A program made the position numbers and the translations under genes. Below the pieces are notes generated by a model. The model was not told where the DNA came from, made no database searches, and was given only the letters and a program-made list of their open reading frames with translations. A stretch of DNA of 39,140 bases from IMG/VR virus record IMGVR_UViG_3300049215_000778, positions 1 to 39,140 of that record; one strand, written 5' to 3'. Shown here in pieces: positions 22,719 to 36,114 of this stretch (positions within the stretch are counted from its first letter, which is position 1; each line of letters opens with the position of its first letter). The DNA is from a virus.

Positions 22719-22721
22719 CGG

Positions 22722-24176
22722 TCAAATTCGGGACTGCGGAAACGTGCCGGGCTTGCTGGTCATTGCTCGGCCGGTGCTGGGCAATGCGTCGAAACCAGCG
22801 GCCAGAGCGTCAACATCGTCGTCGTGTGCGTCGTTCACTCCGGTGAAGCCAGTAACGACGGTCACGAATTCAGTGAGCCAGGGCGCCTGTTGAGGCAGGA
22901 GCACTCTGGGCGGTGTGACATAGGGCGCGTCCGCTTCCTGGTTGGCTCGTGTGCCGTTCCAGGCTGCTGCGACGGGCTGAGCGCGAACGAACTTGTCAGC
23001 GGTCACCTGAATCGCGTTCAGGCGAATCGCCGTGCGCTGTTGGCCCCGCTCGTCTCGCTCGGGAGTGTTGACCAGGTCGGCAACACCCATCTCGGTGCCC
23101 GAGCAATACCAACGCATTTGGGCGCTCGGAAATCGAGCCCGAAGCGACCGAAGCACCTCTTTGAACTCGGGTGCTCGCTGCTGCCGGCGCACGACGTCGA
23201 GCACGTAGTAGGTGCCCTTGCACTCGGCCAGCACCACGGCGACCGACCAGTCGCTCGAGGTTTTCTTGCTGTAGGCCAGGTCCACCCCGATCGCCACCCG
23301 AAATGCCTCGGTGGGCACATGGGAATAGTGGTGGACGTCGCCAAAGACCGAGCCGCCGCGAGGCCTCGGGCGCCCTTGGAAGAGCGAGGCCCAAGTGTAT
23401 TCGCCAGCGCTGCGCCGCTTTTGCTCGAGGAGTTCGAGCGGCCAACGCTCTGGCCAGAGAGCAACACCAGCGTCGCTCACCGCCGGCATGTTCAGATGCC
23501 GCCATGCTGCGGCATCCTCGCTGCCGTGCACGTGCCCGATCAGGTCGTCGGGATGCCAGCGCGTGTGGAAGATGAAAGCCGAGCTGCCGGGCTCAAGTCG
23601 CGTTTCAGCGATGTCTCCCCACCAGTCGGTCACCTTCTCGCGCCACGCTGCCGATTCGGCTTGGACGCGGTCCTTATAGGGGTCGTCGACCAACAAGATG
23701 TCGACGCCTTGCGAGGTGAGCGGTCCACTGATTGCGGTGGCCAGAAGGCCGCCACCCTCAGCGGTGCGCATCTCGTTTAGATTCTCGGCGCCCTTCGCGA
23801 ACCGAACCCCAGCGGCTTCGGCCCACTGACGCGCCTTGCGAGCCTTCGACCTGGCGATTCGATCACCGTAGGTGACATACGCCAGCGTTCGGTGAGGCTG
23901 CTTGAGCAGCGTCAGCGCGATGAAGGCTAGAACTGTGTCGGTCTTCGCGTGCCGAGGCGGCGCGTGTGCCGTGTCGCGAACCGATTCGACCCAAGCTCGC
24001 TCGAGGTCGATCACCAACGGGTCGAGATGTCGAGGCGGCTTGTAGCTCTTGGACAGCGTCGGGATGAAGTCATAGAGGCCGACTGCCTCAGTGGACTTCG
24101 GCACCCTCACCCGAACCATCGTCTCCCGAAGTCGCTGGAGGCCGCGTGTTCGGCTGATCAGTTGCTGGAGACCCAT
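22722..24176 (-). CDS. Terminase large subunit
   Basis: 484 residues from the ATG at 24176; an internal ATG at 24119 with GGGAG upstream is an alternative start, and either overlaps the small subunit. The ATPase has APPRHAKTD as Walker A (residues 73-80) and VDILLVDDPY as Walker B (158-167). The nuclease domain has IGVDLAYSKKTSSDW with Asp299 and ends with the acidic DAHDDDVDALA. Together these are the powering and cutting domains of the packaging motor. The Mu equivalent is gp28, but PPRH-K-T motifs are found in many terminase_6-type proteins. Confidence 0.93.
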   Translation of the reverse strand: MGLQQLISRTRGLQRLRETMVRVRVPKSTEAVGLYDFIPTLSKSYKPPRHLDPLVIDLERAWVESVRDTAHAPPRHAKTDTVLAFIALTLLKQPHRTLAYVTYGDRIARSKARKARQWAEAAGVRFAKGAENLNEMRTAEGGGLLATAISGPLTSQGVDILLVDDPYKDRVQAESAAWREKVTDWWGDIAETRLEPGSSAFIFHTRWHPDDLIGHVHGSEDAAAWRHLNMPAVSDAGVALWPERWPLELLEQKRRSAGEYTWASLFQGRPRPRGGSVFGDVHHYSHVPTEAFRVAIGVDLAYSKKTSSDWSVAVVLAECKGTYYVLDVVRRQQRAPEFKEVLRSLRARFPSAQMRWYCSGTEMGVADLVNTPERDERGQQRTAIRLNAIQVTADKFVRAQPVAAAWNGTRANQEADAPYVTPPRVLLPQQAPWLTEFVTVVTGFTGVNDAHDDDVDALAAGFDALPSTGRAMTSKPGTFPQSRI

Positions 24177-24510
24177 TCAACACGTCCGAAGCAACCTGGA
24201 GCTCGCCCACGACCTTGACCGCCTCAGCGACGGATCGGATGTCGTGAGGCCCGTCGGCCTTGCCAACCAACTCGGTGAGTTTGGAGAGACCGAGCCGAAG
24301 GAACTTCAAGCGCTCGCTGCGCCAATCTTCCTCAGCCTTCCGAAGCTCCTCGACGAAGGCCTGGGCCAGCTCGTCGTCGTTCTCGAGCCGCTGGCGCCAG
24401 TTGAGAATCGACCGGTCGGTGACGCCCCAGCGCTCTGCCGCCTTGGCGTCGCCCATCATGGCCGCATCGGCGAGGATGCGAGCTGCGCGGCGGCGGTCGA
24501 AGGAAGGCAT
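24088..24510 (-). CDS. Terminase small subunit (HTH)
   Basis: 140 residues. N-terminal helix-turn-helix (ARILADAAMMGDAKAAERWG, VTDRSILNWRQRLENDDELA) as in small terminases, then a helical oligomerisation segment (EELRKAEEDWRSERLKFLRL) and a polar tail. It recognises phage DNA and loads the large subunit. It is the first gene of the late block and overlaps the large subunit. No clear Shine-Dalgarno precedes its ATG. Confidence 0.85.
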   Translation of the reverse strand: MPSFDRRRAARILADAAMMGDAKAAERWGVTDRSILNWRQRLENDDELAQAFVEELRKAEEDWRSERLKFLRLGLSKLTELVGKADGPHDIRSVAEAVKVVGELQVASDVLNGSPATDQPNTRPPATSGDDGSGEGAEVH

Positions 24511-24583
24511 TGGTTCAGCGCTTCGGCGAAGGCTTGGGCTTCACCCACGGCCGGTGCGGCCGAGGGGGAGCCGCCGCTTGTAG

Positions 24584-24655
24584 TGGAAGCGGGAGACGGA
24601 ATTGAACCGCCACGCCTGGCTTATGAGACCTGGCCACCCTCCAAGGTTTCCCGCA
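24584..24655 (-). tRNA. Divergent tRNA-Met(CAU)-like gene with encoded CCA
   Basis: 72 bases on the minus strand. The acceptor arms TGCGGGA/TCCCGCT pair at six of seven positions, with a T-T mismatch at the first pair. The T arm is standard (GGCGG-TTCAATT-CCGTC). The anticodon loop CTCATAA holds CAU with U33 and A37. CCA is encoded. Weak points are a short D arm (ACCT-TGGA-GGGT) with A at position 8, and an A-A mismatch in the anticodon stem. The T-loop and CCA argue for a real tRNA or tRNA-like RNA; function is uncertain. Confidence 0.6.
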
Positions 24656-24661
24656 GCAAAT

Positions 24662-24682
24662 CCAGCAGTGCGCCCCTGCTGG
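24662..24682 (-). other. Hairpin directly 5' of the tRNA-like gene
   Basis: Minus strand CCAGCAG, 7-base loop GGGCGCA, CTGCTGG: a perfect 7-bp stem six bases before the tRNA. It could be a processing signal or attenuator. The rest of 24511-24583 and 24683-24770 shows no convincing gene; CATCAGCC occurs twice. Confidence 0.45.
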
Positions 24683-24772
24683 TAGGCTCGTAGCGGCGAG
24701 GCCGCCCGACTAGGCTGATGCGGAGCTGCTGAGTCAGGGTGGCTGATGAGGCCTACCCGTCGTCCCGAGCCC

Positions 24773-24799
24773 CTATATAGAAAGAGCGCTCGGACGCTC
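24773..24799 (-). terminator. Possible terminator of the leftward early operon
   Basis: Minus strand GAGCG-TCCGAG-CGCTC followed by TTTCTATATAG, nine bases after the stop of the last early gene. The stem is short and the U-run interrupted. CTATATAG (24773-24780) could instead serve as a -10 element for the tRNA and late genes. Confidence 0.4.
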
Positions 24800-24814
24800 A
24801 GGATCTCTCAGGAT
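24797..24814. promoter_or_regulatory. Direct repeat, possible operator at the early-late border
   Basis: CTCAGGAT occurs at 24797-24804 and again at 24807-24814, a period of 10 bp (one helix turn). The pair overlaps the end of the HTH gene. Repeats in this phase are typical of protein sites, but none is known here. Confidence 0.4.
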
Positions 24815-25026
24815 TGCTCACGCGGGCGCTGGGCGCGGTCGAGCATGGTCAGAGAATCGAACAACTCCGACGCGCACTTGCGCAACTGGGAAAGGTAGAC
24901 GAGCCGCTTCTTGCCCGGACGCAAGTTTTTCAGCCCCGCTTGGTCGAGCAAGCGATAGAGCTGAAAGCGGGTGAACCCCGTCATCTGTGCCAACTCGGAG
25001 ATGGTGTAGGCGAGTTTGAGTTTCAT
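24808..25026 (-). CDS. Helix-turn-helix protein, candidate late regulator
   Basis: 72 residues; the ATG overlaps the upstream stop as ATGA. The sequence has a MerR/excisionase-like winged HTH (AYTISELAQMTGFTRFQLYR, LLDQAGLKNLRPGKKRLVYL, then SQL). It is the last gene of the leftward early operon, next to the tRNA and the late block, the place where late activators of temperate phages often lie. It could also be an excisionase-type factor, though the integrase is 13 kb away and has its own HTH neighbour. Confidence 0.75.
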   Translation of the reverse strand: MKLKLAYTISELAQMTGFTRFQLYRLLDQAGLKNLRPGKKRLVYLSQLRKCASELFDSLTMLDRAQRPREQS

Positions 25027-25367
25027 TTTTTGAACCGATCAAGGATGGCCTCGACGGTCTTCAACAGCGCCTCTTGGGCGTTGAGCCATCGTCTTGGAAC
25101 CTGCCCTCGAATCAGACTGATGATTTCGTATCTCTCCTTTGCGACTACGCCCTTCACCAGATCGTTGATGCCCTGGCTGTGCTCGGCCTGGGCCTTGGCC
25201 GGCGCTTTGCGGAAGTCCTCGACCAGAGCGAGCGCGCCGGCCTTCTCATCAGCGAGCCGCCTCACCTCGGCCAACAGGTCTCGGCAATCCGACCTTGTCG
25301 ACCAACCGGGTGGCTTCGGGACCCGCGTTGACCGTTCTTCGATCTGCTTCAACTCTTCTGGTGTCAT
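25023..25367 (-). CDS. Small helical early protein, unrecognised
   Basis: 114 residues from the ATG at 25367, which has GAGGAA upstream and overlaps the previous stop as ATGA; longer readings of the frame lie inside the preceding gene. It begins MTPEELKQIEERSTRVPKPP and continues with CRDLLAEVRRLADEKAGALA, a charged helical pattern seen in many phage early proteins of unknown function. There is no membrane segment or metal site. Confidence 0.7.
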   Translation of the reverse strand: MTPEELKQIEERSTRVPKPPGWSTRSDCRDLLAEVRRLADEKAGALALVEDFRKAPAKAQAEHSQGINDLVKGVVAKERYEIISLIRGQVPRRWLNAQEALLKTVEAILDRFKK

Positions 25368-25882
25368 CGGTTCTTCCTCGCGATCTCGAATGCCCTCAGC
25401 GCCTCGTCGAGCTGCTCTCGAGCCAGCCCGCGAACCTCGGCCAACCATCGAGCGGCGGCCGGCGTCTTGGTGGCGTTCCGAGCGATGCGCGCCAGCCAGT
25501 CGAGCAACGTTCTGCTGGTGCGACTGCGGCGGTGCGGACCAACGCCAACCTGGAGGGCCAGCGCGGCCAGCTCGTCGTAGGCGTGGAGCACTGCCGGCGC
25601 GAGACCGTTGAAGGCCTCTCGGAGCGTCAGAGTGTGGTCGTGCCCGATCTGCTCAAGAGCACGCGAGATGCGCCGGGCCCTGGTGCTCGCGTGCAACCAC
25701 CGCACATCAGGCTCTGAGCGCAGCCGACTGCTGAACGTGAGCGGAGCCTGGAGGCGTTGAATCATCCCCGGATAGTTCGAGCGCAGCCCACATTCCCCGT
25801 CGGCCTCGCGGAAGAACCACCGGAGATCGTCGGCAGTGCGTGGGTTGGGCAGCAGATCGGCCAGAGTTCGAAGTGCGTGCAT
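25364..25882 (-). CDS. Early protein of unknown function
   Basis: 172 residues from the ATG at 25882, preceded by AAGGAG. The first part (LRTLADLLPNPRTADDLRWF, FREADGECGLRSNYPGMIQR) and a later basic helical section (RRISRALEQIGHDHTLTLRE, RTLLDWLARIARNATKTPAA) suggest a soluble helical protein. No family was recognised. It is coupled to the next gene by ATGA. Confidence 0.7.
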   Translation of the reverse strand: MHALRTLADLLPNPRTADDLRWFFREADGECGLRSNYPGMIQRLQAPLTFSSRLRSEPDVRWLHASTRARRISRALEQIGHDHTLTLREAFNGLAPAVLHAYDELAALALQVGVGPHRRSRTSRTLLDWLARIARNATKTPAAARWLAEVRGLAREQLDEALRAFEIARKNR

Positions 25883-26026
25883 CTGTGCTCCTTTGACGCG
25901 AGGCGGTGCGGGCGAAAAATGACGAAAAAAGACTTGGTGAGACGACTCAACTACCCAGCAAGACTCAGATTCATTTTTCGGATTCATCGGTAACAGGGAC
26001 GTCGAGGCGTGGGCCGGTGGCCCAGT
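25883..26026 (-). other. Short A/T-rich gap with a tiny possible ORF
   Basis: No normal gene is visible. A GTG at 26030 overlaps the previous stop (GTGA) and opens a 19-codon frame (MNWATGPRLDVPVTDESEK). Runs such as GAAAAATGACGAAAAAAG stand out in this GC-rich sequence. It may be a small translated peptide or a regulatory spacer. Confidence 0.3.
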
Positions 26027-26170
26027 TCACGGCTGTGGTTGTTGCGAAGTCGCTGGTGATCGGCCGGTGGGAACGGGGGTCGATAGTCGTTCACGGGACG
26101 GAACGACAAAGACCCCTTGCGTTCGAGCCTGGGTTGAGACCAGCGCCTCTGGAATGACGAGCACCCTCAT
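26027..26170 (-). CDS. Small early protein, hypothetical
   Basis: 47 residues (starts MRVLVIPEALVSTQARTQG). The ATG overlaps the stop of the small membrane protein (ATGA). The C-terminal half is rich in P, S, T and Q. Support comes mainly from the unbroken chain of overlapping frames. Confidence 0.4.
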   Translation of the reverse strand: MRVLVIPEALVSTQARTQGVFVVPSRERLSTPVPTGRSPATSQQPQP

Positions 26171-26280
26171 AGAAAATCCAGTGCGAGCATCAGGACCGCA
26201 GCAGCGAGGAAGCCGACGGCGAACGCCAGAACTCCGAATTCGATGAGGTCGGCGCCAGTCACCCAAAGACGTCGATTCAT
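26167..26280 (-). CDS. Small single-pass membrane protein
   Basis: 37 residues, too short for usual gene calls. GGGAGG lies at ideal distance before the ATG at 26280, which overlaps the upstream stop. A polar start (MNRRLWVTGADLIEFG) is followed by a hydrophobic helix (VLAFAVGFLAAAVLMLALDF). Early phage membrane peptides of this kind often affect host functions or superinfection, but the role here is unknown. Confidence 0.55.
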   Translation of the reverse strand: MNRRLWVTGADLIEFGVLAFAVGFLAAAVLMLALDFL

Positions 26281-26480
26281 GGACCCTCCCCAAGCCAGTC
26301 GAGACGGTTGGAGCAATCGGCCATGCGTCTGGCCAACTCGCCGTGCTTTGGCGTGCCCGGTCTCGCCCCCTCCAACCGCCGAGTGCAGTCGAGCAAGTCG
26401 AGGTGGAGAAGCTTCCGGCAGATGCGACGCCAGATCGGGCCGCGCTGAGGAATCGCGGGCGTGTCAGTGAGAGAACTCAA
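26277..26480 (-). CDS. Small early protein with TTG start
   Basis: 67 residues. The TTG at 26480 overlaps the previous stop (TTGA) and has GGAGGAG just before it, so translation reinitiates there. The sequence is basic and helical (PIWRRICRKLLHLDLLDCTR, ELARRMADCSNRLDW). The family is not recognised. It ends in an ATGA overlap with the small membrane protein. Confidence 0.5.
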   Translation of the reverse strand: MSSLTDTPAIPQRGPIWRRICRKLLHLDLLDCTRRLEGARPGTPKHGELARRMADCSNRLDWLGEGP

Positions 26481-26770
26481 GTCTCCTCCGTCGCATCGAG
26501 GAGACCGGAGCCGTCGCACACCTCGCAGCTTTCCCAAGCGGTGCCGAAAACGTCTTCGCACTCGCAATGCTTTTCGGAGTAGCCGCAGTCTGAGCAGACC
26601 TGGCCGAAGCCTTCGCAGGTCTCACACTGAACGTGGCTCTCTGTTGCGGCCTGGCAGCGACCGCACAAGAAAACGTCGCCGTTCTCGGTGGCCAGCGGAG
26701 TCGGTTTGGCCAGCATCCCGCAGCACTCGCAGGATTCGAGAACGTCCGGCAGCTTCAGCGAGGCGATCAA
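26477..26770 (-). CDS. DnaJ-type zinc-finger protein
   Basis: 97 residues from a TTG at 26770, which overlaps the upstream stop (TTGA) with GAGG six bases before. The protein holds many cysteine pairs: CECCG, FLCGRC, CETCEGFGQ, VCSDCGYSEKHCEC and SCEVCDGSG. The CxxCxGxG-like units recall the zinc domain of DnaJ and of RNA-binding or chaperone-like phage proteins. It lacks a J domain. It is one of a run of small zinc-binding early proteins and may be a regulator or host-interaction factor. Confidence 0.65.
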   Translation of the reverse strand: MIASLKLPDVLESCECCGMLAKPTPLATENGDVFLCGRCQAATESHVQCETCEGFGQVCSDCGYSEKHCECEDVFGTAWESCEVCDGSGLLDATEET

Positions 26771-27009
26771 GGCGCACCTCGCTGCGGCACCTTCACGCCC
26801 AGGTTCTCGAGCCACCTCGGCGCCGGCAACTTCGACGAGCGCCAGTCGAACCAGCCACGCGAGCAAACCGCGACGCCCCAGATCGAGCAGAGCTTGGCGA
26901 TCTCGCACCCTTCGTGCTTCGGCAACTCGCACCGATGCGATTCCGAATTCGGGATGCCGTCGACCTCAAACGGGAAGTCGAGACCGGACCCCAACGAGTG
27001 GCCCGTCAT
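26767..27009 (-). CDS. Small cysteine-containing early protein
   Basis: 80 residues; the ATG overlaps the initiator stop as ATGA. Four cysteines and two histidines in HRCELPKHEGCEIAKLCSIW and a Trp-rich end (GVAVCSRGWFDWRSSKL). This could bind a metal ion. No family recognised. Confidence 0.6.
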   Translation of the reverse strand: MTGHSLGSGLDFPFEVDGIPNSESHRCELPKHEGCEIAKLCSIWGVAVCSRGWFDWRSSKLPAPRWLENLGVKVPQRGAP

Positions 27010-28040
27010 GCCGCACCTTCCTTTTTGCGGTGCTCCTCGAGCCACGCGGTGAACGGAGGGTTGCCATCGGACTGCCAGCGCTTCACGCACGATTCGCAGA
27101 TCGGAGTCCGAGCGACGCCGGCCGTGTGCGTTGCGGGCTCGGCCTGGCAACAAACGCACTTCGGCGGCGCTGCGGGTTCGGCTGGTGACGATGGAGCGAG
27201 GCCAACTCTCGTTGCGCGCGAGTGGCACTCGGCCCGCTTCTCGCGGGTGAAGCATCGCAACGGGCATGGCGGATCAAGCTTCTGGGCCCACGGGTCGGCG
27301 AGGTACGCGCGCCACGCAATCTCAACTCCGGCTTCGGAGAGCTGCGCAACGGCGTCTGAGATGAATGCATTCAGCCGAGGTTGAGCCGGGCCAGGGTCGT
27401 TCGGAGAATCCGGCAGGGCTTGCGTTCGCATCTCTTGGAGGCGAAGCCAGAGCGCTTCCTGTCGAGATGGCTGTTTTTGCTTTTTGGGGGCTGGTGCTGC
27501 TTCGGGTTCTGGCTGGTCGCCGAGCAATCCGAGCTGACCGGAAGACTCGGCGCTTTGATAATCTTCCGCTGCCCGCACCGCGAGAGATCTTTTTCTATTC
27601 TTACTCTCCTCTCCTCTCCTCTCCCCCAAATCGTCGCTCGGACACGTTGCGACAGTCTCCGGATGCTCGCGCGATTGTCGCGCGATTGTCGCGCGACGGT
27701 TCTGTTGACGGTCCCGATCGCGTTCGAGCTTCTTCAGATGGGCTTCGTTGTGCTCATCCCAGTCGTGGACTCGGTAGAGTTCGGCGTCGCCCTCGATGAA
27801 CCCGGCTGAGATTGCAGCAGCAACAAAGCGACCGGTCTCGCCTTCCCAACCCGCAGCCTCTTCGACCAATGCGCCAGCATGCCGGCCACGAACAACGCCA
27901 TCGGGCGCGAACTCGGAGCACCAGGCCCAGAGTTGTACGAGGTAGGACCATGCGCGCTTCTCGCCCAACTCACGGCCGAGAAGTCTCGCCTTTGGGTGGC
28001 GAGGAAGGTCCGCGTAGAGTTTGATCCAAGGCAGACCCAT
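27006..28040 (-). CDS. Phage replication initiator/replisome organiser
   Basis: 344 residues; its ATG overlaps the upstream stop (TGATG). Residues 1-110 have the winged-helix pattern of phage replisome organisers (GLPWIKLYADLPRHPKARLL, RAWSYLVQLWAWCSEFAPDG, AAAISAGFIEGDAELYRVHD). A basic, low-complexity linker follows. The C-terminal part has a zinc site (CVCCQAEP, PICESC). No helicase or loader gene lies nearby, so it probably recruits host DnaB directly. Its gene contains short tandem repeats that may be the phage origin, as in lambda O. Confidence 0.75.
   Translation of the reverse strand: MGLPWIKLYADLPRHPKARLLGRELGEKRAWSYLVQLWAWCSEFAPDGVVRGRHAGALVEEAAGWEGETGRFVAAAISAGFIEGDAELYRVHDWDEHNEAHLKKLERDRDRQQNRRATIARQSREHPETVATCPSDDLGERRGEESKNRKRSLAVRAAEDYQSAESSGQLGLLGDQPEPEAAPAPKKQKQPSRQEALWLRLQEMRTQALPDSPNDPGPAQPRLNAFISDAVAQLSEAGVEIAWRAYLADPWAQKLDPPCPLRCFTREKRAECHSRATRVGLAPSSPAEPAAPPKCVCCQAEPATHTAGVARTPICESCVKRWQSDGNPPFTAWLEEHRKKEGAA
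27585..27699 (-). other. Candidate replication origin inside the initiator gene
   Basis: Three tandem 11-bp units lie at 27667-27699: TCGCGCGATTG, the same again, then TCGCGCGACGG. Beside them is a pyrimidine tract with a 5-bp repeat (CTCCT, 27605-27625) and an A/T-rich stretch (27588-27604). Periods of 11 and 5 are not multiples of three and yield a non-repetitive protein, so the repetition is kept at DNA level. The layout matches iterons plus an unwinding element. Confidence 0.55.
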
Positions 28041-28267
28041 CAGCGCGCACCTCTTCTGCGGGTTCGCGCTGACCGCTCTCGGACAAGGGTTCGGATTGCG
28101 CCGGAGGCCAGCTTCAGCGCTCCGACATGATCGAAACCGATGTACAGGCCACCACCGTCGGCCGACTGAACAGCAGCGGTCACGCCGCCTTTGCTTTCGA
28201 TGAGGTCGACTCGGATCGTGTCGCCAAGATTCGGATTGATGGCGGGCGGAATCTTGTTGGGCTTCAT
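28040..28267 (-). CDS. Small early protein, unrecognised
   Basis: 75 residues from the ATG at 28267, with AGAGGA upstream and an ATGA overlap with the gene before. Beta-rich N-terminal part (GDTIRVDLIESKGGVTAAVQ, GGGLYIGFDHVGALKLASG) and a very basic tail (RTRRRGAR). It may bind nucleic acid. No family recognised. Confidence 0.6.
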   Translation of the reverse strand: MKPNKIPPAINPNLGDTIRVDLIESKGGVTAAVQSADGGGLYIGFDHVGALKLASGAIRTLVRERSARTRRRGAR

Positions 28268-28581
28268 TCGGAATCCTCTCGCAGCGGAGACGCCTCGCAT
28301 ACGCCCCACCGGGCGCAGCCAGTGGGTTGCCTCACGAGTTGAAATTGCTGCCCCCCCCGATCAGTCGCGGCCCATCGCATGACTTCGCGGATGCCGACGG
28401 GCTCGACGCTGGGGCCGGCTTCGTTCTCGGGAACGCCTGACTTGATCAGGCGGCGCTTCTCCGGGCGACGGTCACGCGTGAACATCGTTGCGCCCATGCG
28501 TTCTTCGAGAGCTGCGATCTCGTCAATGCGTTCGGGCTGAAGCCGAGAGACCAACTCCAGCTCGCGCTTAGCGGCGTTCAC
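28264..28581 (-). CDS. Small early protein downstream of the methyltransferase
   Basis: 105 residues from a GTG that overlaps the methyltransferase stop (GTGA). Charged helical N-terminus (AAKRELELVSRLQPERIDEI), then a basic region (TRDRRPEKRRLIKSGVPENE). An eight-base G/C run (28351-28358) lies within the coding sequence and could make the frame unstable. No family recognised. Confidence 0.6.
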   Translation of the reverse strand: MNAAKRELELVSRLQPERIDEIAALEERMGATMFTRDRRPEKRRLIKSGVPENEAGPSVEPVGIREVMRWAATDRGGQQFQLVRQPTGCARWGVCEASPLREDSE

Positions 28582-29664
28582 GGCGCACCACCGATCAGCG
28601 CCCGAGGAGGTTCAATCTCCAGCGCGGCTTGGATGCGTCGGCCGAGCCACTCGCCGATTTGCGGCACCGCCGCATTGCCGAGGCAGCGAAGGCGGTCCAC
28701 CCGAGCGGGAATCCCATGAGCCACTCGACCCACGTCGGGTTCAGCGCCCCACCAGCCTGCACCGTCAACGGCGGCGAACCTTCGCAAGTCGAGCTGAGCC
28801 CCGGCGAACGCGCGTCCGCAGCGCGAGGCGTAGCCCACCGTTTCACCGCCGTTGGGGGTGTGGGGAACCCCCGGGGGGGGGGGGCCCAACCCCAGACTGT
28901 TCCGCTTGAGCTGAGATGCTCCCGCAACATTCCGAGCGTCGTTTGTTGTCGGCGTGGGCCAAACTCCCCGCTCCACCTTGCGAACCATCTTGGCCAGGTC
29001 CACTTGACGCTTGCGACCGTCCGGCACCATCCCCGTCGGCGAAACCTCCTCCGGCAGCGAGCGACCACCGTTCGAAGGCGTCGTTGGAGTCGGCCACATG
29101 CCGCGGCTGGCCATCGTGTCGAGCGAGGGCCTCACCGCTGCGCCCGAACTCGGACTCTGGTTGCTGCCGTAGCGGCTCGCGCTTGGCGTAGGCAACCACG
29201 AAGATTCGGTCACGGAGGTGAGGGGCGCCAACGGCGGCCGCTGGAATACAGTCCCACTCAGCATCAAACCCGAGCGAGGCCAGGTCTCCGAGAACTCGTC
29301 CGAAACCCCGAACGCGGAGCGCTGCGACGTTCTCCACAAGCACGACTCGGGGTCGTAGCTCGCGAATGATCCGTGCGAACTCGGACCAGAGTCCGCTGCG
29401 GGCTCTGCTGATGCCAGCTCGCTTGCCGGCGTTGCTGATGTCTTGGCAGGGGAAGCCCCCGCAGATGAGGTCAACGGGGGGGGCATTTTGTGTACCAACC
29501 TCGCGCACGTCGCGAAAGAGGCGCGTTCGAGGCCAGTGCTTCCGAAGCACTCGGCGCGCGTAGGGATCGATCTCAACCTGGAAGGCGCAGCGCATGCCGG
29601 CGCGCTCGAGACCGAGGTCGAGGCCACCGATGCCACTGAAGAGGGAGCCAAAGACGAGGGTCAC
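28578..29664 (-). pseudogene. C5-cytosine DNA methyltransferase, frame broken at a C12 tract
   Basis: From the GTG at 29664 (GTGA overlap) the first frame carries SLFSGIGGLDLGLERAG (motif I), FQVEIDPYARRVL, GGFPCQDIS (catalytic Cys, motif IV), VENVAAL (VI) and RDRIFVVA (VIII). It then hits a 12-base C run on the coding strand and stops at 28843. The rest, AGWWGAEPDVGRVAHGIPAR and VDRLRCLGNAAVPQIGEWLG (motifs IX-X), lies in the frame shifted by one. One C fewer would give a full protein of about 361 residues. It may be a phase-variable gene, a sequencing artefact or a true pseudogene. It would protect phage DNA from host restriction. Confidence 0.8.
28873..28884. repeat. 12-base G/C homopolymer tract in the methyltransferase gene
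   Basis: Twelve consecutive G on the plus strand (C on the coding strand) between CCCCC and CCC. The tract is exactly where the methyltransferase frame changes. Runs of 8 occur nearby at 29476-29483 and 28351-28358. Confidence 0.9.
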
Positions 29665-30164
29665 GTTGCCCACCCCCGAACCAACTCGGTCCAGTCGAAG
29701 CGCTGAGTGAGCGCCTCGCGGATGTCGATGCGAGATCCGTCGAAACCCTCGAGTTCGCCTTGGTAGACGAGCGCCACCGAGTGGACCTTGATTCGGCCCG
29801 CAGCGAAGTCGCGCCCGCTCTGAGTGACGCGCCAGAGTCCGGCGCGAGGGTTGCCGTCGGCCTTCTCGGCGTCGGCTTCCTGGAGCAGGCCCCAGTAGCG
29901 AAGCTTCGCGGGATCGCCTCGGAGCGTGGAGCGCAACTCGGGCGCCAGCGAGTCAGCGGCCAGCACCGTCGGCAGGTGCAACCACTCATCTGGTTGGCGA
30001 GCGAGGATGCACAGCGCCGCCGCCATCGAAGAGGTGAGCTTGCGCCGGTAAAGTTGGCAGTGAGAGCGGCACGCGCGGCAAGTCGTGCCCTTCACCCGAT
30101 CGAGTCGGATGCGCTCTTGCTCCTGGCGGAGCGTCGCTTCTCTGAAGGGAAGTTGGGGAGTCAC
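29661..30164 (-). CDS. Early protein with N-terminal Cys cluster
   Basis: 167 residues, GTG start overlapping the stop of the Cro-like gene (GTGA). The start is basic (REATLRQEQERIRLDRVKGT) and followed by TTCRACRSHCQLYRRKLTSS, a likely zinc site. Residues 45-120 suggest a winged-helix fold (AAALCILARQPDEWLHLPTV, RYWGLLQEADAEK, LWRVTQSGRDFAAG). A DNA-binding regulator is plausible. Widely similar proteins occur in phages, but no named function is known to me. Confidence 0.7.
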   Translation of the reverse strand: MTPQLPFREATLRQEQERIRLDRVKGTTCRACRSHCQLYRRKLTSSMAAALCILARQPDEWLHLPTVLAADSLAPELRSTLRGDPAKLRYWGLLQEADAEKADGNPRAGLWRVTQSGRDFAAGRIKVHSVALVYQGELEGFDGSRIDIREALTQRFDWTELVRGWAT

Positions 30165-30400
30165 CGACGACCCCCGGTCAACTGCTCTCGACGCCAGGGC
30201 GTGTCGTAAAGGCAGTCGTTGATCGAGATCTCCCCCAACGAGACCTCAAGAGCGGCCTTGGCTTGTTCTGGGGTAAACCGCTGGAGTTGGCCGTTTTCGA
30301 AGTTGGCAACTCTGGCTTGGGTGGTGCCGATCTTCTCGGCCATCTCCGATTGCGTCAGACCTTTGCGCAATCGGAAGTCTTCGAATGGATGGGTTCGCAT
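30161..30400 (-). CDS. Cro-like XRE-family regulator
   Basis: 79 residues. HTH_XRE pattern FEDFRLRKGLTQSEMAEKIG followed by TTQARVANFENGQ. It is the first gene of the leftward early operon and lies opposite the repressor, the lambda cro layout. The promoter at 30409-30437 places the transcript start only about two bases before the ATG, so this mRNA may be leaderless; there is no Shine-Dalgarno. Confidence 0.8.
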   Translation of the reverse strand: MRTHPFEDFRLRKGLTQSEMAEKIGTTQARVANFENGQLQRFTPEQAKAALEVSLGEISINDCLYDTPWRREQLTGGRR

Positions 30401-30408
30401 GCTGGAAA

Positions 30409-30437
30409 AGCATAGACTTGCTTGTATTGCTTATCAA
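30409..30437 (-). promoter_or_regulatory. Leftward early promoter
   Basis: Minus strand -35 TTGATA (30437-30432, 5 of 6), 17-base spacer, -10 TATGCT (30414-30409, 4 of 6). The -35 is inside the palindromic operator, so repressor binding would block it. Predicted start near 30402. Confidence 0.6.
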
Positions 30438-30442
30438 GCAAT
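30426..30442. promoter_or_regulatory. Palindromic operator O1
   Basis: ATTGCTT-ATC-AAGCAAT, 7-bp arms around 3 bases, between the divergent regulator genes. The arms match the site at 31404-31420 (ATTGC-N7-GCAAT). Further TTGC/GCAA half-sites flank it. Confidence 0.65.
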
Positions 30443-30474
30443 TGTCTTGCGATGCCGGCGCACGGGGTGGCGTG

Positions 30475-31011
30475 ATGGAGGCAGGGGCGTGTAAAGCATC
30501 GTTTATGTCAGGAAGGCATAAGGCACCCCAGCGGAAGGTCTACGACAAGAGGCTGGGAGCCGTTATCAGGAAGACCATCCAGACCAAGGGCATCAACCAA
30601 AAGGCCCTAGCGTTGGAAGTCGGCATTGACGCGTCGAACCTCAGCCGAATGCTGAGCGGTGCTCAGACGATTCAGCCCGACCAACTCGACAAGATCGCGA
30701 AGGCGCTCGGGAAGTCTTCGAAGGATTTGCTACCCGAAGAGGGCGGCAGTCCATTCGCGCTCAAGGCCGAGTTGGAAGGAACGCGCGAGGATGACCCGAC
30801 AACCTGGCCGGAAGGGCTCGATCACTTCCTGGGCTCGCACGGTGAGCGGCTGGGAGTCACACCGCGCGAGCGCTGGCAGATGATTCACAGCCGGTTTCGT
30901 CTCGAGCCATGGGTCAAGCTCAACGACGACTTCTGGGAAGACATGCTGGGCTTCTGGCGGAAGCGCTTCGCCGCCGAGGATGCTCAGCGGCTTAGTACAT
31001 CGAAGCGCTAG
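30475..31011 (+). CDS. CI-like repressor (XRE-family HTH)
   Basis: 178 residues from the ATG at 30475, with GGGGTGG upstream; an ATG at 30505 is possible. The HTH lies at residues 28-82 (LGAVIRKTIQTKGINQKALA, LEVGIDASNLSRMLSGAQT). The C-terminal half (WPEGLDHFLGSHGERLGVTP, then WQMIHSRFRLEPW) is not a LexA-type peptidase: no S-K dyad or cleavage site was seen, so induction must work another way, perhaps with an antirepressor. It stands opposite the Cro-like gene and would keep both early promoters silent. Confidence 0.8.
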   Translation: MEAGACKASFMSGRHKAPQRKVYDKRLGAVIRKTIQTKGINQKALALEVGIDASNLSRMLSGAQTIQPDQLDKIAKALGKSSKDLLPEEGGSPFALKAELEGTREDDPTTWPEGLDHFLGSHGERLGVTPRERWQMIHSRFRLEPWVKLNDDFWEDMLGFWRKRFAAEDAQRLSTSKR

Positions 31012-31325
31012 AGCCCCTTCTGTTGCTCTTCCTTTTGGAGCCTCTCTCCCGATGAGCGCGGCTCCATGAAGGTGACGCGTACCATCTCAAGGCGTCCGTC
31101 TTTGAAGACGTAGTCGATCTGGGCCTTGAGCTCTGAGACCAGTCGACGCGCCTCAAGCGCCTTCAAGGTGTTCCACTTCGCTGACTTCACATCAGGGTTC
31201 AGCTTCTGAACTTCGGTGATCGACATCCCCCACCGCGTGTTCTGGTAGCCGGCGTCTGAGAGTGTCTCCTCAGGCTTCGCCGAAGCCACCGACGGCACCA
31301 GCAACAGCAACCATACCCAGCGCAT
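31008..31325 (-). CDS. Small secreted protein in the immunity region
   Basis: 105 residues with GGGAGG before the ATG. The signal peptide is clear (MRWVWLLLLVPSVASA); the mature protein has YQNTRWGMSITEVQKLNPDV, a WGMS-x-EV motif seen in many small periplasmic proteins, and a helical end. Its stop overlaps the repressor stop in CTAG. Location beside the repressor and export fit a lysogen-expressed superinfection-exclusion or host-fitness gene; this is inferred. Confidence 0.7.
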   Translation of the reverse strand: MRWVWLLLLVPSVASAKPEETLSDAGYQNTRWGMSITEVQKLNPDVKSAKWNTLKALEARRLVSELKAQIDYVFKDGRLEMVRVTFMEPRSSGERLQKEEQQKGL

Positions 31326-31391
31326 TCATACCTCCCGGAAGTCGCTTCTAGTTTCACATCCGGGTTTGCGTTGTCACACCACGGGTTTAAG

Positions 31392-31438
31392 ATTGCGTGG
31401 TGAATTGCTTGACACGCAATATGCTTTTTTAGCATTAT
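31392..31438 (+). promoter_or_regulatory. Rightward early promoter with operator O2
   Basis: -35 TTGACA (31409-31414, perfect), 18-base spacer, -10 CATTAT (31433-31438). The operator ATTGC-TTGACAC-GCAAT (31404-31420) covers the -35. A wider inverted repeat ATTGCGTG/CACGCAAT (31392-31399 and 31413-31420) overlaps it. Confidence 0.65.
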
Positions 31439-31461
31439 GGACATGTAGCACGGCGCTGGGA

Positions 31462-31590
31462 ATGGGTTGGATGGGCGGCAACACGGAGCTGAGCAAGCCC
31501 ACGGGCGACCTCGGCAGATGGCGCCAGAAGCAGAGAGCGAAGCGGCAGCAACGCAAAGAGACACGGAGTCGACCATGGTCGAAGTGCTGA
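31462..31590 (+). CDS. Small basic early protein
   Basis: 43 residues (MGWMGGNTELSKPTGDLGRW, then a strongly basic stretch rich in R, K and Q). First frame after the rightward promoter. The ribosome site is weak (GGGA), and an ATG at 31471 is possible. It overlaps the next gene. It may be an antiterminator-like or nucleic-acid-binding peptide, but this rests only on its charge and place. Confidence 0.4.
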   Translation: MGWMGGNTELSKPTGDLGRWRQKQRAKRQQRKETRSRPWSKC

Positions 31591-31934
31591 GAATAGTTCT
31601 GGCGGGCGAAGCGACCGGGCCCGCCGAATCGAAAGGGTTGACCGGTCGCCTTCAAGTCTCCGACGAGTGCGGCGACTGCGGACGACTGTTCGAGGTCTGC
31701 ATTCCTCACGCGACGGGCGGTGTCTGCGGTTGCACTCCGTGTGAGCGGTGCGCGTCGAGGCCTGTGCGGCCGCCGCTCCCGATCGGATTGCGCGGCGAAC
31801 TCGAGAGGGCGATCGCGTCGCTGGGCCACGCGCTCGAGGTGATCAGCGAGTTGCACAACTCCGAGCCCCGGTGGACCGCGACGAAAGCGAACCTCGCCGA
31901 AGCGATGGTCAACGTTCGGGAGGTGCTCTCGTGA
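31575..31934 (+). CDS. Early protein with zinc-binding motif
   Basis: 119 residues from the ATG at 31575, with GGAG upstream. Cysteines form ECGDCGRLFEVC and VCGCTPCERC, probably one or two zinc sites. The C-terminal half is a helix pair (LRGELERAIASLGHALEVIS, TKANLAEAMVNVREVLS). No family recognised. Confidence 0.6.
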   Translation: MVEVLRIVLAGEATGPAESKGLTGRLQVSDECGDCGRLFEVCIPHATGGVCGCTPCERCASRPVRPPLPIGLRGELERAIASLGHALEVISELHNSEPRWTATKANLAEAMVNVREVLS

Positions 31935-32299
31935 GTAAATCTAAAGCGAGGCCATTTACTCCCGGACCCTGGTCAATTGAGGACGACGATGAAGGGCCCG
32001 CCAACGGCCCCGGTGGTGAGGTCGTCGCTGATGTCCTGATGGAGCACGACTTCGCATGCATCGAGGAAAAAGACCGACCCGCCGCCGACGCTGAGTGCAG
32101 GGGCAATCGCCGGTTGGTCAAGGCTGCTCCCGATCTGCTTGCTCGGCTCGACGTGAGCACTCGTGGCCTTGCGGCTATGGCCCGAGACTTCGCCGAGTTG
32201 CCTCGGGCCATCCGTCCCCCTGACGAGAACCTCGCGGGTCTTCGGGCGCTGGTTCGAGAGAACCGCGCCGTGCTCCGCGCGGCTCGAGGCAAGCGATGA
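31931..32299 (+). CDS. Early protein of the TPGPW...AAPDLL family
   Basis: 122 residues from a GTG that overlaps the previous stop (GTGA). It has the widespread phage pattern FTPGPWSIEDDDEG at the start and NRRLVKAAPDLLARL in the middle, seen in many early phage operons without known function. A helical tail follows (PDENLAGLRALVRENRAVLR). The next gene overlaps as ATGA. Confidence 0.7.
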   Translation: MSKSKARPFTPGPWSIEDDDEGPANGPGGEVVADVLMEHDFACIEEKDRPAADAECRGNRRLVKAAPDLLARLDVSTRGLAAMARDFAELPRAIRPPDENLAGLRALVRENRAVLRAARGKR

Positions 32300-32475
32300 G
32301 CGACCGAGAGCAGCGGCTCACGCGCCTTGTCGCGAAGCTCGTCGCCGAAAACGACGCGCTCAAGCGCCGACTCGCTGGCGAGGCACCACGTCAGCGCAGC
32401 GTTCCAGAGAGCGCAACTCGAGAGCTGACCGTCGAGCGCATTGCCCTGCCCGATTACCTCAACGAGGCCGGCTGA
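32296..32475 (+). CDS. Small coiled-coil protein
   Basis: 59 residues; the ATG overlaps the previous stop (ATGA). Begins MSDREQRLTRLVAKLVAEND, a short leucine-rich helix, then an Arg/Ser region and TVERIALPDYLNEAG. No family recognised. Confidence 0.5.
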   Translation: MSDREQRLTRLVAKLVAENDALKRRLAGEAPRQRSVPESATRELTVERIALPDYLNEAG

Positions 32476-32476
32476 G

Positions 32477-32869
32477 ATGGTGACGCTTCTTCACAGCGCT
32501 GGAGTGCACACCAGCGATCGGCGGAGGAAGTGCCGCCCTGCTGGCCTCGATGAGCGCGGGCCTTGGGTGGTGCTCCTGCTCGACGACAAGGGCGCTGAGT
32601 GGGCGCTGATCGCCGAAGGCCTTTCGCTCGAGGAAGCGCGCGATCTGACGTTCGACGCTCGGAGCGATTCCGAGTTGCTGTTGGCCTCCGCGCTGGGGGG
32701 AGCTGCGATGACCTGGCTTCTCTATCGCATCGTTTGGCTCGTGTTCACCGTCGCCGTGGTGGGTTGGATGTTCTGGCCCGCTTGGGTGCTCCGCCGACGG
32801 ATTCGCCGAACTGACTACGAAGACTTGAGCGAAGCACATCGGCGCCGTTCTCAGCGCCGCGTTCACTGA
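32477..32869 (+). CDS. Early protein with soluble head and membrane anchor
   Basis: 130 residues from the ATG at 32477 (GAGG upstream). Residues 1-70 are a soluble basic part (SDRRRKCRPAGLDERGPWVV, then GLSLEEARDLTFDARSDSEL). Residues 75-105 are hydrophobic (MTWLLYRIVWLVFTVAVVGW, then MFWPAWV), followed by a basic stop-transfer segment (LRRRIRR). A short gap of about 30 bases separates it from the next gene. Function unknown. Confidence 0.55.
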   Translation: MVTLLHSAGVHTSDRRRKCRPAGLDERGPWVVLLLDDKGAEWALIAEGLSLEEARDLTFDARSDSELLLASALGGAAMTWLLYRIVWLVFTVAVVGWMFWPAWVLRRRIRRTDYEDLSEAHRRRSQRRVH

Positions 32870-32898
32870 CCCATTCCACACCAAAACTGGAGTTGAAC

Positions 32899-33594
32899 TT
32901 GAAGACCACCGAGAAGGTTCTGGCTTGGCATTTCGCCGCAGCAGATAAGCGCCTTGGATACGGCGACGGCAGACTGATCGTGCAGGGCAAGACGCTCATT
33001 CATCGCAAGGCTCAGGGCAAGATTCTGCTCTGCAACCGAGGCCTCCACGCCAGCATCAGCCCTCTCGATGCGTTGCAGTGGGCGCCGGGGCCCGTGGTCT
33101 GCCGCGTTGAGATGAGCGGGCAGATTGAGAGGGGAGATGACAAGTTGGTCGCCACGCGCCGAAAGACGCTGTGGTTGATCGAAGCCGAGCAGGGGAACCG
33201 GCTGCTTCGCGAGTTTGCTGTGTGGAGTGCTCGCGAGGCGTTGAGGCGAATCGAGAACCCCGATCCGAGGAGCTTGGCCGCCTGTGATGTTGCAGAGCGG
33301 TTCGCCCGTGGCGAAGCGACACGGGAAGAGCTCAACGCAGCGAGGGCCGCAGCGGAGTCCGCAGCGAGGGCCGCAGCGAGGGCCGCAGCGAGGGCCGCAG
33401 CGGAGTCCGCAGCGTGGTACGCAGCGAGGGCCGCAGCGGAGTCCGCAGCGAGGGCCGCAGCGGAGTCCGCAGTGTGGTCCGCAGCGGAGTCCGCAGCGTG
33501 GTACGCAGCGAGGGCCGAGCAGAACCGCCGCTTGGAGGAAATGCTCCTTGCGGCGGCTCCTGCGGCCTCGAAGAGCCGAAAGGCGGTGCGCTAA
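32899..33594 (+). CDS. Early protein with conserved N-terminal domain and Ala-rich repeat
   Basis: 231 residues. A TTG at 32899 has GGAG six bases upstream; a TTG at 32893 is possible. Residues 1-100 contain AWHFAAADKRLGYGDGRLIV, LCNRGLHASISPLDALQWAP and RVEMSGQIERGDDKLVATRR, a pattern shared by a widespread phage protein family of unknown function. The region from about residue 147 on is made of 15 four-residue units (AARA, AAES, AAWY, AVWS). The gene overlaps the RecT-like gene as TAATG. Confidence 0.7.
   Translation: MKTTEKVLAWHFAAADKRLGYGDGRLIVQGKTLIHRKAQGKILLCNRGLHASISPLDALQWAPGPVVCRVEMSGQIERGDDKLVATRRKTLWLIEAEQGNRLLREFAVWSAREALRRIENPDPRSLAACDVAERFARGEATREELNAARAAAESAARAAARAAARAAAESAAWYAARAAAESAARAAAESAVWSAAESAAWYAARAEQNRRLEEMLLAAAPAASKSRKAVR
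33337..33516 (+). repeat. 12-bp coding minisatellite, 15 units
   Basis: Fifteen 12-bp units without interruption: GCAGCGAGGGCC (AARA), GCAGCGGAGTCC (AAES), GCAGCGTGGTAC (AAWY) and one GCAGTGTGGTCC (AVWS). The repeat keeps frame, so unit number can vary without breaking the gene. Confidence 0.95.
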
Positions 33595-34640
33595 TGGCTA
33601 CCGCCCCCGAACAGACCGAAACCGCTTTGACCACCACCGCGACGGCCGAGCCCGCAGCGCCGGCACCTCGACCTTCCTCGGCCCTCGCCTCTCCGATGGG
33701 TTTCGAGCCGACCAACATGCGCCAGCTCTGGTGGCTCTGTGAGCAGTTGGTGGGCACGGGCTTCCTTCCCTCGCGCGTCACCAGCCCCGGCCAGGCGGTG
33801 GCCATCATTCTCGCCGGCAAAGAGCTGGGCCTGGGCACGATGCAAGCCCTTCGGGGCGTCCACATCATCGAGGGCAAGATCAGCCTGGCCGCTGACACGC
33901 AACTTGGCCTGATGATCCGCGCCGGCATCCGGTTCAAGTGGCTCGACAAGACTGACAAGCGCGCTTGCCTCCGCCTCGAGCGCCCCAACCAGGAACCCGA
34001 AGAGTTCGCCTTCACCATCGAAGAGGCGGACCGGGCTGGGTTGGTGCGCGCCAACCGCGATGGGAAGCCAGGCAACTGGCAGAAGTATCCCGCTGCGATG
34101 CTCCGGGCTCGCGTGGTGTCGATGGCGGGTCGCGCCTACGCGCCCGATGTGCTCACCGGCATCTACGTGCCGGGCGAACTCGGCGAGGCCTCGTCATCGC
34201 CCGAGATGGAGTTCGAGCCTCCGCCATCCGGGCCCGAGGCGAAGGCGTTGCCGGCGCCGAAGCCGGTGGTGCATCGCTGCCTTCGCAGCGGGCGCGACGT
34301 CGGGCCCAACGACCTCACCGCTGAGAGCAAATGCCCAGATTGCGGCGTGGAGTGTGATCGCAACTTTCGATGCGAGCCGCTGCCGCCCCAGAAGCCCGCT
34401 CCGACTCGAGACGACGATCCGCCGCACGTTGAGGTCGTCGATGAAGAGGCCGCGAAGCGCCTTGAGTCGATCGCGACGGTCAAAGAGGCGATCGGCCAAG
34501 CGGCGACGGTGGCGCAACTCATCGAGGTCGGCCAGGGCATCGCCGAGATGGAGTTGGCCGCTCCCGAGCGAGAGGCGATGCGCGAGATCTATGCAAAGCG
34601 AAAGGCTGAGTTGATCGCGACGCTGGAGGTGGCGCAATGA
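33594..34640 (+). CDS. RecT-like single-strand annealing protein
   Basis: 348 residues, ATG overlapping the upstream stop (TAATG). The first part carries a RecT-type core seen in many phages: VAIILAGKELGLGTMQALRG, VHIIEGKISLAADTQLGLMI, EFAFTIEEADRAGLVRANRD, NWQKYPAAMLRARVVSMAGR. The C-terminal third contains CLRSGRD and CPDCGVEC, a possible zinc site, then an acidic helical tail. It would anneal single strands during phage replication or recombination. No exonuclease partner is visible next to it. Confidence 0.75.
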   Translation: MATAPEQTETALTTTATAEPAAPAPRPSSALASPMGFEPTNMRQLWWLCEQLVGTGFLPSRVTSPGQAVAIILAGKELGLGTMQALRGVHIIEGKISLAADTQLGLMIRAGIRFKWLDKTDKRACLRLERPNQEPEEFAFTIEEADRAGLVRANRDGKPGNWQKYPAAMLRARVVSMAGRAYAPDVLTGIYVPGELGEASSSPEMEFEPPPSGPEAKALPAPKPVVHRCLRSGRDVGPNDLTAESKCPDCGVECDRNFRCEPLPPQKPAPTRDDDPPHVEVVDEEAAKRLESIATVKEAIGQAATVAQLIEVGQGIAEMELAAPEREAMREIYAKRKAELIATLEVAQ

Positions 34641-34729
34641 ACGCCATGGACGCCACCGCGTGGCTGATGGAGCTGCGCACCGGCCTCAAAGGAACTCGCG
34701 GCGCTCCTAGGCTGGTGGTGCCGCTGTGA
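34637..34729 (+). CDS. Very small ORF between RecT-like and zinc-finger genes
   Basis: 30 residues (MNAMDATAWLMELRTGLKGT). ATGA overlap before and GTGA overlap after. Kept because it fills the chain of coupled frames; a product is not proven. Confidence 0.35.
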   Translation: MNAMDATAWLMELRTGLKGTRGAPRLVVPL

Positions 34730-34872
34730 ACGGTCCCGAGGTTCACCACTGCGGCCGGTGCTCTGGGTCGGCGTCCATCCTCTGCCATGAGCGCGGCGAG
34801 TGGTGGTGTTCGTGGCTCTGCAAGGCCTGCTTTGCGAGCTTGTTCGGCTGGAGACGGGCGGTGCAGTCGTGA
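34726..34872 (+). CDS. Small zinc-finger-like protein
   Basis: 48 residues, GTG start in a GTGA overlap. HHCGRCSGSASILCHERGEW then WCSWLCKACF: seven cysteines and two or three histidines, enough for two zinc sites, with a basic C-terminus. No family recognised. Confidence 0.5.
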   Translation: MNGPEVHHCGRCSGSASILCHERGEWWCSWLCKACFASLFGWRRAVQS

Positions 34873-35063
34873 GCGGCCTTCGCGACTTCTTCACCGAGCC
34901 ATTCCCGACCGCCTCTTTCTTGGTCGTCGCCGGCGCCTTCCTCGCTTGCTGCTTCGGCGTCTGGTGGCTCAGCCGCAAGCCGAGAGCGCGCCTCCACCCC
35001 TTGAATAACCACAACCTAGCCGAGTTGAAGCGCGGCCCCAACCGACACAGGAAATTCAAATGA
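34869..35063 (+). CDS. Small membrane protein
   Basis: 64 residues, GTG start overlapping the previous stop. One hydrophobic helix (FPTASFLVVAGAFLACCFGV) then a basic cytoplasmic tail. Ends in an ATGA overlap with the Nudix gene. Confidence 0.55.
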   Translation: MSGLRDFFTEPFPTASFLVVAGAFLACCFGVWWLSRKPRARLHPLNNHNLAELKRGPNRHRKFK

Positions 35064-35683
35064 GCGACATCAAAGTCGATGCGGTGGCGCTGGTCTTCGA
35101 CGCCTCCGGCCGCTTGCTGATGGTGGAGCGGAAGAAGCAACCGGGCATGTGGGGCGCGCCTGGCGGCAAGGTAGAGCCGAACGAGCACCCCGACGATGCA
35201 GCGGTGCGCGAGCTTTACGAGGAGACCGGTGTCATCGTGGACCGGCTCGACTTGGCAGACTTGGGCCACCACGACGACAACGGACGCACGGTCTATGTGT
35301 TCCAGGTTCGCGATCCGATTGATCACGAACGTGCTCAGCGACAGACCGGAGAGGGTGCCTTGCGCTGGGCTCCGCTGGCCGACCTCTTCACTCCCAGCAC
35401 GTGCCCTTTTGCGATGCCACTTCGCCGAGCGCTGCCTGAGCTCTACCAGAGGTCCGTGCTCGAGAACGCGAAGGCCTATGCCTCCGAGTTCGGCAGCTTT
35501 GTTACCCGAGCGGTCTCCGTCTGCGGTCTCGAGTCGACGATGAGGATCATGGTCGACTGCGCCGCTCTTTGTGCTCGGCGAAGCGGCATCTCCAAAGAGC
35601 AGTGGGACCGCTGGACGTTGCTGGGCTGGAACTCGGCCCACGATCAAGCGGCCATCTACGAAGCCGAGAGGGGGAAGAAATGA
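35060..35683 (+). CDS. Nudix hydrolase
   Basis: 207 residues, ATGA overlap. A perfect Nudix box spans residues 36-58: G-KVEPN-E-HPDDAAV-REL-Y-EE-T-GV. The fold continues to about residue 130 (WAPLADLFTPSTCPFAMPLR). The last 75 residues form an additional helical part (SVLENAKAYASEFGSFVTRA) not typical of minimal Nudix proteins. The substrate cannot be told; modified or oxidised nucleotides, NAD-like compounds or capped RNA are usual. It lies with two ASCH-like genes, which fits nucleotide or RNA metabolism. Confidence 0.9.
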   Translation: MSDIKVDAVALVFDASGRLLMVERKKQPGMWGAPGGKVEPNEHPDDAAVRELYEETGVIVDRLDLADLGHHDDNGRTVYVFQVRDPIDHERAQRQTGEGALRWAPLADLFTPSTCPFAMPLRRALPELYQRSVLENAKAYASEFGSFVTRAVSVCGLESTMRIMVDCAALCARRSGISKEQWDRWTLLGWNSAHDQAAIYEAERGKK

Positions 35684-36114
35684 GCTACTCCTGGGCCATC
35701 TCCACCGTCCGGCCGTGGACCTACTTGCTCGCGCACGGCGTGCTTCCTCAGTGGGTCGTCGACGCCGACCCCGCTGTGTTGATCGGCGAGCGCGTCGCCA
35801 TTCACTCCGGGCCGAAGGGTTGGCGCGGCGAGCTGGGCGCCCAGGGCTACAAAGAGCTTGATCACCTGCTCGAGGGCTGGCCGCTCACGCACGACCGGCG
35901 CGAGTTGCAACGCCTCTGCCCTCACGATGCGCTGGTGGGCGTGGTGGAGGTTCGCAACGCTCTCCCAGTGGATGGCGGCTGGCGGCTCTGGCTCGTCGGA
36001 GCGCGACCCATTGAGCCGATTCGATGCGAGGTCAGCGGCGCCGACATCTTCGCGCTGCGCCAGGAGCACCGAGAGGCAATCTCCCAGGCGATGTTGAAGG
36101 GACGGGCCGCTTGA
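35680..36114 (+). CDS. ASCH/PUA-like domain protein
   Basis: 144 residues, ATGA overlap with the Nudix gene. The N-terminus AISTVRPWTYLLAHGVLPQW, then GERVAIHSGPK and further on LVGVVEVRNAL follow the ASCH pattern (R-P-W-x-x-LL-HG, then a strand ending G-x-x-x-IH-G). Such small domains bind RNA or modified nucleosides. The last 20 residues are helical. Probably acts with the Nudix protein. Confidence 0.7.
   Translation: MSYSWAISTVRPWTYLLAHGVLPQWVVDADPAVLIGERVAIHSGPKGWRGELGAQGYKELDHLLEGWPLTHDRRELQRLCPHDALVGVVEVRNALPVDGGWRLWLVGARPIEPIRCEVSGADIFALRQEHREAISQAMLKGRAA

Follow-up and report, generated by a model that had tools for sequence, protein, structure and literature searches.

Our analysis suggests, with a probability of about 0.85, that the locus described here, an early gene of a temperate myophage, encodes a nested two-subunit C5-cytosine DNA methyltransferase with the motif layout of M.EcoHK31I, in which a run of 12 cytosines (C12) stands one base out of register. 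The DNA analysed, referred to here as the window, is the IMG/VR virus record IMGVR_UViG_3300049215_000778, with 39,140 bases and 64% GC. Its gene content, including tail sheath, baseplate, capsid, portal and terminase genes, identifies the source of the window as a temperate myophage. The methyltransferase is the third gene of a leftward early operon (Table 1), preceded by the phrog_2693 gene and followed by small genes leading to the replication initiator. Each of the main structural and replication genes scanned is one full-length ORF, so the gene cluster is not decaying. The reading frames, their break at C12 and the dual coding in relatives are direct observations, and the enzyme belongs to a kind that is known but under-annotated. 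In the mechanism that we propose, the alpha subunit (frame 0) would supply the catalytic domain with motifs I-VIII together with motif X; the beta subunit, presumably made by internal initiation at a start in the +1 frame, would supply motif IX and, probably, a large part of the small domain for DNA recognition; and the two subunits would associate into an active enzyme.

Table 1. Features of the methyltransferase locus and its surroundings, in window coordinates
Feature	Position	Strand	Remarks
Alpha gene, C5 methyltransferase	28578-29664	-	start GTG 29664, stop 28578
Motif I, FSGIGG	29623-29640	-	frame A
Motif IV, GFPCQ, catalytic Cys	29443-29457	-	frame A
Motif VI, ENV	29326-29334	-	frame A
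Motif VIII, HLRDRIF	29200-29220	-	frame A
Motif X, LGNAAVPQ	28659-28682	-	frame B (alpha)
Beta ORF, nested in alpha, +1 frame	28595-29486	-	read in frame B before the tract and in frame C beyond it; a tract of 11 would give about 296 aa
Motif IX, NPTWVEWLMGFPLGWT	28694-28741	-	frame C (beta, P0003)
C12 homopolymer, breakpoint of both overlapping frames	28873-28884	- (G12 on +)	between motif VIII and motif IX
C8 run	28351-28358		in frame with its gene
C8 run immediately following the candidate beta ATG	29476-29483	- (G8 on +)	in frame for alpha and beta
Replication initiator, beyond small genes downstream of the methyltransferase	27006-28040
phrog_2693 gene, upstream neighbour of the methyltransferase	29661-30164
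Small HTH (Cro-like) gene	30161-30400	-
Repressor	30385-31011	+
Integrase	38016-39140	+

An earlier note on this DNA had described a single cytosine methyltransferase with motifs I-VIII and motifs IX-X in two frames that meet at a 12-base homopolymer. Part of this description stands: the homopolymer does lie at the frame break, frame A (P0001) carries motifs I-VIII from the GTG start up to the tract and motif X is in frame B. Motif IX, however, is found in frame C, and frame B downstream of the tract has motif X without motif IX, so that what was taken for a single-chain enzyme with IX and X in its second frame is better read as an alpha gene with a beta gene nested in it, the former carrying X and the latter IX. 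Frame A matches PF00145 with E=9e-45 and reaches a stop at 28843 soon after the tract, and phrog_363 matches in two frames, one before the tract and the other after it. As the note had proposed, one C fewer reopens the frame: frame A is joined to frame B, which ends at the alpha stop codon, giving an alpha subunit of 361 aa, and the same change also reconnects beta, frame B to frame C. GTGA overlaps are found at both alpha ends, where the stop of the upstream gene overlaps GTG 29664 and the GTG of the downstream gene overlaps the stop at 28578. Since alpha has such junctions at both ends only if A joins B, frames A and B can be regarded as one gene. The candidate beta start, ATG 29486, has GAGG 12 bases upstream. 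Frame B matches phrog_1008 upstream of the tract (P0002 57-243, E=4e-24), and the match continues downstream of it in frame C (P0003 107-131, E=3e-6). Because this match spans frame B and then frame C, the second overlapping ORF must also be broken at the tract, in the same direction as the first. The frame C sequence NPTWVEWLMGFPLGWT is the equivalent of the canonical motif IX and may be compared with TPRECWRLQGFPDWAF in the single-chain enzyme of phage 5093, and EPDVGRVAHGIP, which frame B contains just before motif X and which could pass for a conserved lead-in to it, is the other reading of the bases that encode motif IX.

The effect of tract length on both genes can be read modulo 3. A tract of 11 (or 8, or 14) leaves alpha and beta both intact. 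A tract of 12, as in the assembly, gives an alpha of 273 aa without motif X, and frame B then continues from the beta N-terminus into the alpha C-terminus, a chimera of 302 aa without motif IX. A tract of 10 or 13 fuses the alpha N-terminus to motif IX of beta, without X, and truncates beta. With C12 out of register, alpha would lose motif X and beta would lose motif IX together; the assembled sequence is predicted to be OFF in terms of activity, and a tract of 11, 8 or 14 would be ON for both subunits.

The small gene of M.EcoHK31I is likewise nested inside the large gene in another frame. This enzyme (YGGCCR) has a large subunit with motifs I-VIII and X and a small subunit in which motif IX occurs alone (Lee 1995, as cited in PMC3404938). 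By motif layout the window enzyme resembles it closely: the large subunit also has I-VIII and X without IX, both in window frames A and B and in an alignment of 20 relatives, and motif IX is in a second, smaller polypeptide, here in frame C. It differs from M.EcoHK31I in being phage-borne, with no restriction partner recognised, in its long WPTP-type beta and in its interruption by C12. M.AquI (CYCGRG) is also an alpha/beta C5 methyltransferase, in which IX and X are both in the small subunit (PMC3404938). The window shares with M.AquI the separation of motifs I-VIII from later motifs in another polypeptide. A split of this type would make P0001 a complete alpha and place the start of a separate beta, containing both IX and X, inside frame B, and there is a phage example of IX and X together in a +1 ORF, namely Streptomyces phage RemusLoopin gp34/gp35 (L083 1230-2283), where the methyltransferase is divided between two ORFs in different frames and the second (+1) holds both motifs. 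For the window it is nevertheless highly improbable: IX in frame C and X in frame B are read in different frames after the tract, motif X belongs to alpha, unlike in M.AquI, and the relatives keep X in the alpha frame. Nor do IX and X share one frame, as they would in a single-chain enzyme. In Mycobacterium phage Babsiella, gp54 contains phrog_363 and phrog_1008 sequence in one chain; like the window it has both alpha- and beta-type sequence, but in one chain and one frame, not nested. The one-chain form in Babsiella and the two-ORF form in RemusLoopin together show that the beta-type sequence is the C-terminal half of a C5 methyltransferase. RemusLoopin gp34/gp35, an M.AquI-like arrangement, is annotated simply as two DNA methylases. 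For the 5093-group phages of Streptococcus thermophilus, C5-methyltransferase products have been reported that fully overlap in different frames (PMC5601072). Phage 5093 was considered as a precedent and rejected, since in its C5 methyltransferase (L166 6055-7023) all motifs, including IX and X, are in one main frame, so that it is not of the split-motif-IX kind.

Structure prediction is consistent with this division of labour. In the AF2 model of the alpha subunit from one relative (L002), the catalytic domain (residues 9-168) is confident and the end with motif X is folded, and residues 172-280, the place where the small domain is expected, are disordered and largely below pLDDT 50. The model matches M.HhaI and M.HaeIII over about 162 columns. 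A folded catalytic domain and motif X on either side of a disordered 172-280 fit a missing domain that is supplied in trans. Modelled alone, beta gave no usable fold (pLDDT 50). Matches of beta to glycolipid transfer proteins among PDB sequences were weak, with E about 1, and were taken as chance.

Dual coding of this kind is widespread among relatives. Eighty viral relatives were fetched with the alpha N-terminus as query, a search that is blind to the +1 frame, and 74 viral alpha genes were extracted from them; the bacterial set of 55 loci was found through beta. In all 74 viral genes the alpha frame stays open across motif X or the region equivalent to it, and most also have a long ORF in the +1 frame, with WPTP repeats and motif IX. 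In 48 viral and 55 bacterial loci, from many phyla, motif IX lies in the +1 frame inside alpha, in a putative separate polypeptide, and frame 0 has motif X. With motif X as the sole anchor, the +1 frame has a strict motif IX in 41 of 61 non-redundant viral genes and a variant recognisable by eye in about 15 of the other 20, leaving about 5 of the 61 without a recognisable one. We used a codon-shuffle test, in which synonymous codons were permuted within each gene and the open +1 and +2 lengths were compared. The +1 frame is longer than in the permuted copies in 58 of 74 viral genes at p<=0.05, and the pooled Fisher p of about 3e-57 is too small, because the sequences are related and their p-values are not independent; the contrast with the +2 control, in which 6 of 74 genes reach p<=0.05 (pooled p=0.02), is clear. 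The excess is strongest in low-GC relatives, such as L063 (43% GC; 191 open +1 codons against 63 expected) and L080 (47% GC; 251 against 77). For the window gene alone, which is GC-rich, the +1 open-frame test is not significant (p=0.10); it is the family that makes the case for dual coding.

Codon choice and codon position provide further evidence. Of 45 alanine codons that overlie motif IX, 42 are GCT, with 8.2 expected from each gene's own usage, a preference explained by the Leu codon (CTN) of motif IX, which requires GCT. Similarly, residue x of the sequence VAxG is only H, D, N or Y, and hence always an NAT codon, in 92 viral and bacterial loci, which had been chosen for having a +1 motif IX; the NAT is what the motif IX Met codon demands. 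For closely related pairs of genes, we divided the number of changes at codon position 3 by that at position 1; the ratio is 4.1 over motifs I-III, largely outside the overlap, 2.2 over IV-VIII, about 1.0 between VIII and IX and 1.6 from IX to the end. The most variable codon position is 3 over motifs IV and X and 1 over motif IX in an entropy test that is biased, its loci having been selected on the +1 motif. In the motif-X-anchored repeat of that test, the values for positions 1-3 are 1.09, 0.84 and 1.00 over motif IX and 0.54, 0.37 and 1.40 over motif X, so the contrast over motif IX is weaker but still clearly unlike that over motif X. A start codon with an SD-like sequence upstream of beta is present in 28 of 75 genes, with 8.3 expected. 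Taken together, the tests based on codon shuffling, codon position and codon choice point to family-wide selection on the +1 frame, so that at the family level a second ORF under selection lies inside the first, on the same strand in another frame. We rejected GC-rich codon usage as the source of the +1 frame, since the +2 control, the low-GC relatives and the codon-choice tests counter it. By these data, C5 methyltransferases of a large family, in phages and bacteria alike, appear to depend on a hidden +1 protein carrying motif IX, and gene callers annotate the large subunit only of such nested enzymes. The annotated ORF, cloned or modelled alone, would then be an incomplete enzyme. In the plasmid records that one bacterial beta matched, the annotated feature at the place of the match bears the name of the cytosine methyltransferase.

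C12 is the sole run of at least 9 bases in the window, where a dinucleotide model predicts about 0.006 C/G runs of at least 12 and one is observed. Its flanks are self-complementary (CCCCC-GGGGGGGGGGGG-CCC). The two nearby 8-base G/C runs pointed out in the earlier note are also present, and three C/G runs of at least 8 bases fall within 1.13 kb, for which the chance is about 0.002 under random placement in a post hoc test. The 8-base runs were considered as further frameshift errors and rejected, as both are in frame. We regard it as an even bet that C12 itself is a one-base consensus error of assembly or sequencing and that the phage has 11 (or 8) C's, with both subunits intact. Apart from one base, the two overlapping frames show no damage, nor do the two operon junctions; all relatives are intact at this place, the full-length structural and replication genes speak against decay of the gene cluster, and the break coincides with the one long homopolymer of the window. 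In L017, moreover, the gene following the methyltransferase contains a G13 (6368-6380) at which its frame shifts by one base, the same kind of break as that at C12. Against an error, short reads with good coverage usually give a correct consensus at 12 bases.

Contingency repeats in bacterial methyltransferases are classically poly-C/G tracts of 9-12, and homopolymer-controlled methyltransferases of bacteria, such as the mod genes of Neisseria and Haemophilus, are conserved and demonstrated contingency loci. As in the mod genes, the length of a coding homopolymer sets the frame in the window, and unit changes in C12 would switch the frame, as expected of a homopolymer phase-variable gene; unlike the mod genes, the window is one assembly and two subunits would switch at once. 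It is possible, though less likely than not, that poly-C slippage toggles alpha and beta together and produces a phage population with mixed methylation. The tract is far longer than chance and is placed where one step kills both subunits, and C/G runs of at least 9 recur inside the methyltransferase gene in four relatives (L006, L008, L009 and L017). However, three of these four are related and share one site, and no relative fetched has a comparable tract at the C12 place or is out of frame there. After motif VIII, the longest homopolymer is 9 in one relative, 7 in another and at most 6 in the rest, and no C/G run of at least 12 was found inside the methyltransferase genes of any relative fetched. 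The earlier note had allowed that its reading would fall if relatives kept the frame with no tract; the 74 viral alpha genes do keep it, so the tract is not a conserved feature of the family. Close relatives were also sought: the exact C12 flanks with variable spacing had no match in viral_contigs, megablast of window 20001-39140 against phages and searches with the neighbour gene 29661-30164 and the replication initiator returned none, and the capsid gene found remote relatives only (best 41% identity). On the sequences compared, C12 is a lineage-specific interruption, not a conserved contingency locus, because all 74 viral alpha genes are open and none has a comparable tract. It could still be a young contingency tract, and if C12 is real, one contingency repeat would control two overlapping subunits at once. 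That this is a phage homopolymer switch in the overlap of two nested genes, with one slippage toggling both methyltransferase subunits, is a tentative and somewhat doubtful proposal.

CCC-C is a known +1-prone context, and a real tract of 11 or 12 C's is expected to slip somewhat, whichever length is the consensus. It is conceivable, and in our judgement unlikely, that C12 is real and fixed, with a methyltransferase that is dead or is made at a low level through +1 slippage of the ribosome or RNA polymerase on the Pro codons. Both subunits need a +1 shift, the direction favoured at CCC-C, but before and after the break no other disabling change is seen in either frame, and any inactivation would therefore have to be recent.

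Several smaller observations concern homopolymers and long frames elsewhere. Runs of C8 to C10 occur right after the candidate beta start in L006 (5177), L008 (5173), L009 (842) and the window; all are in frame, and the length of the C run varies between loci, the counterparts of the window C8 in related loci being C7, C9, C10 and C10. In about 1.15 Mb of related loci there are two C/G runs of at least 12 only, the G13 of L017 and a C20 in L089 (2164-2183), which lies between genes, in a short gap, with a nested methyltransferase of Roseomonas sp. GC11 about 0.7 kb downstream. In GC-rich DNA, a long nested frame is to some extent expected by itself, which weighs against the nested reading. In the window, the +2 frames are open over most or all of the length of the ordinary structural genes at 3135-4331, 5256-6614 and 10490-12217 and are longer than in codon-permuted copies (p 0.003-0.007), which is probably a codon-order effect in GC-rich DNA.
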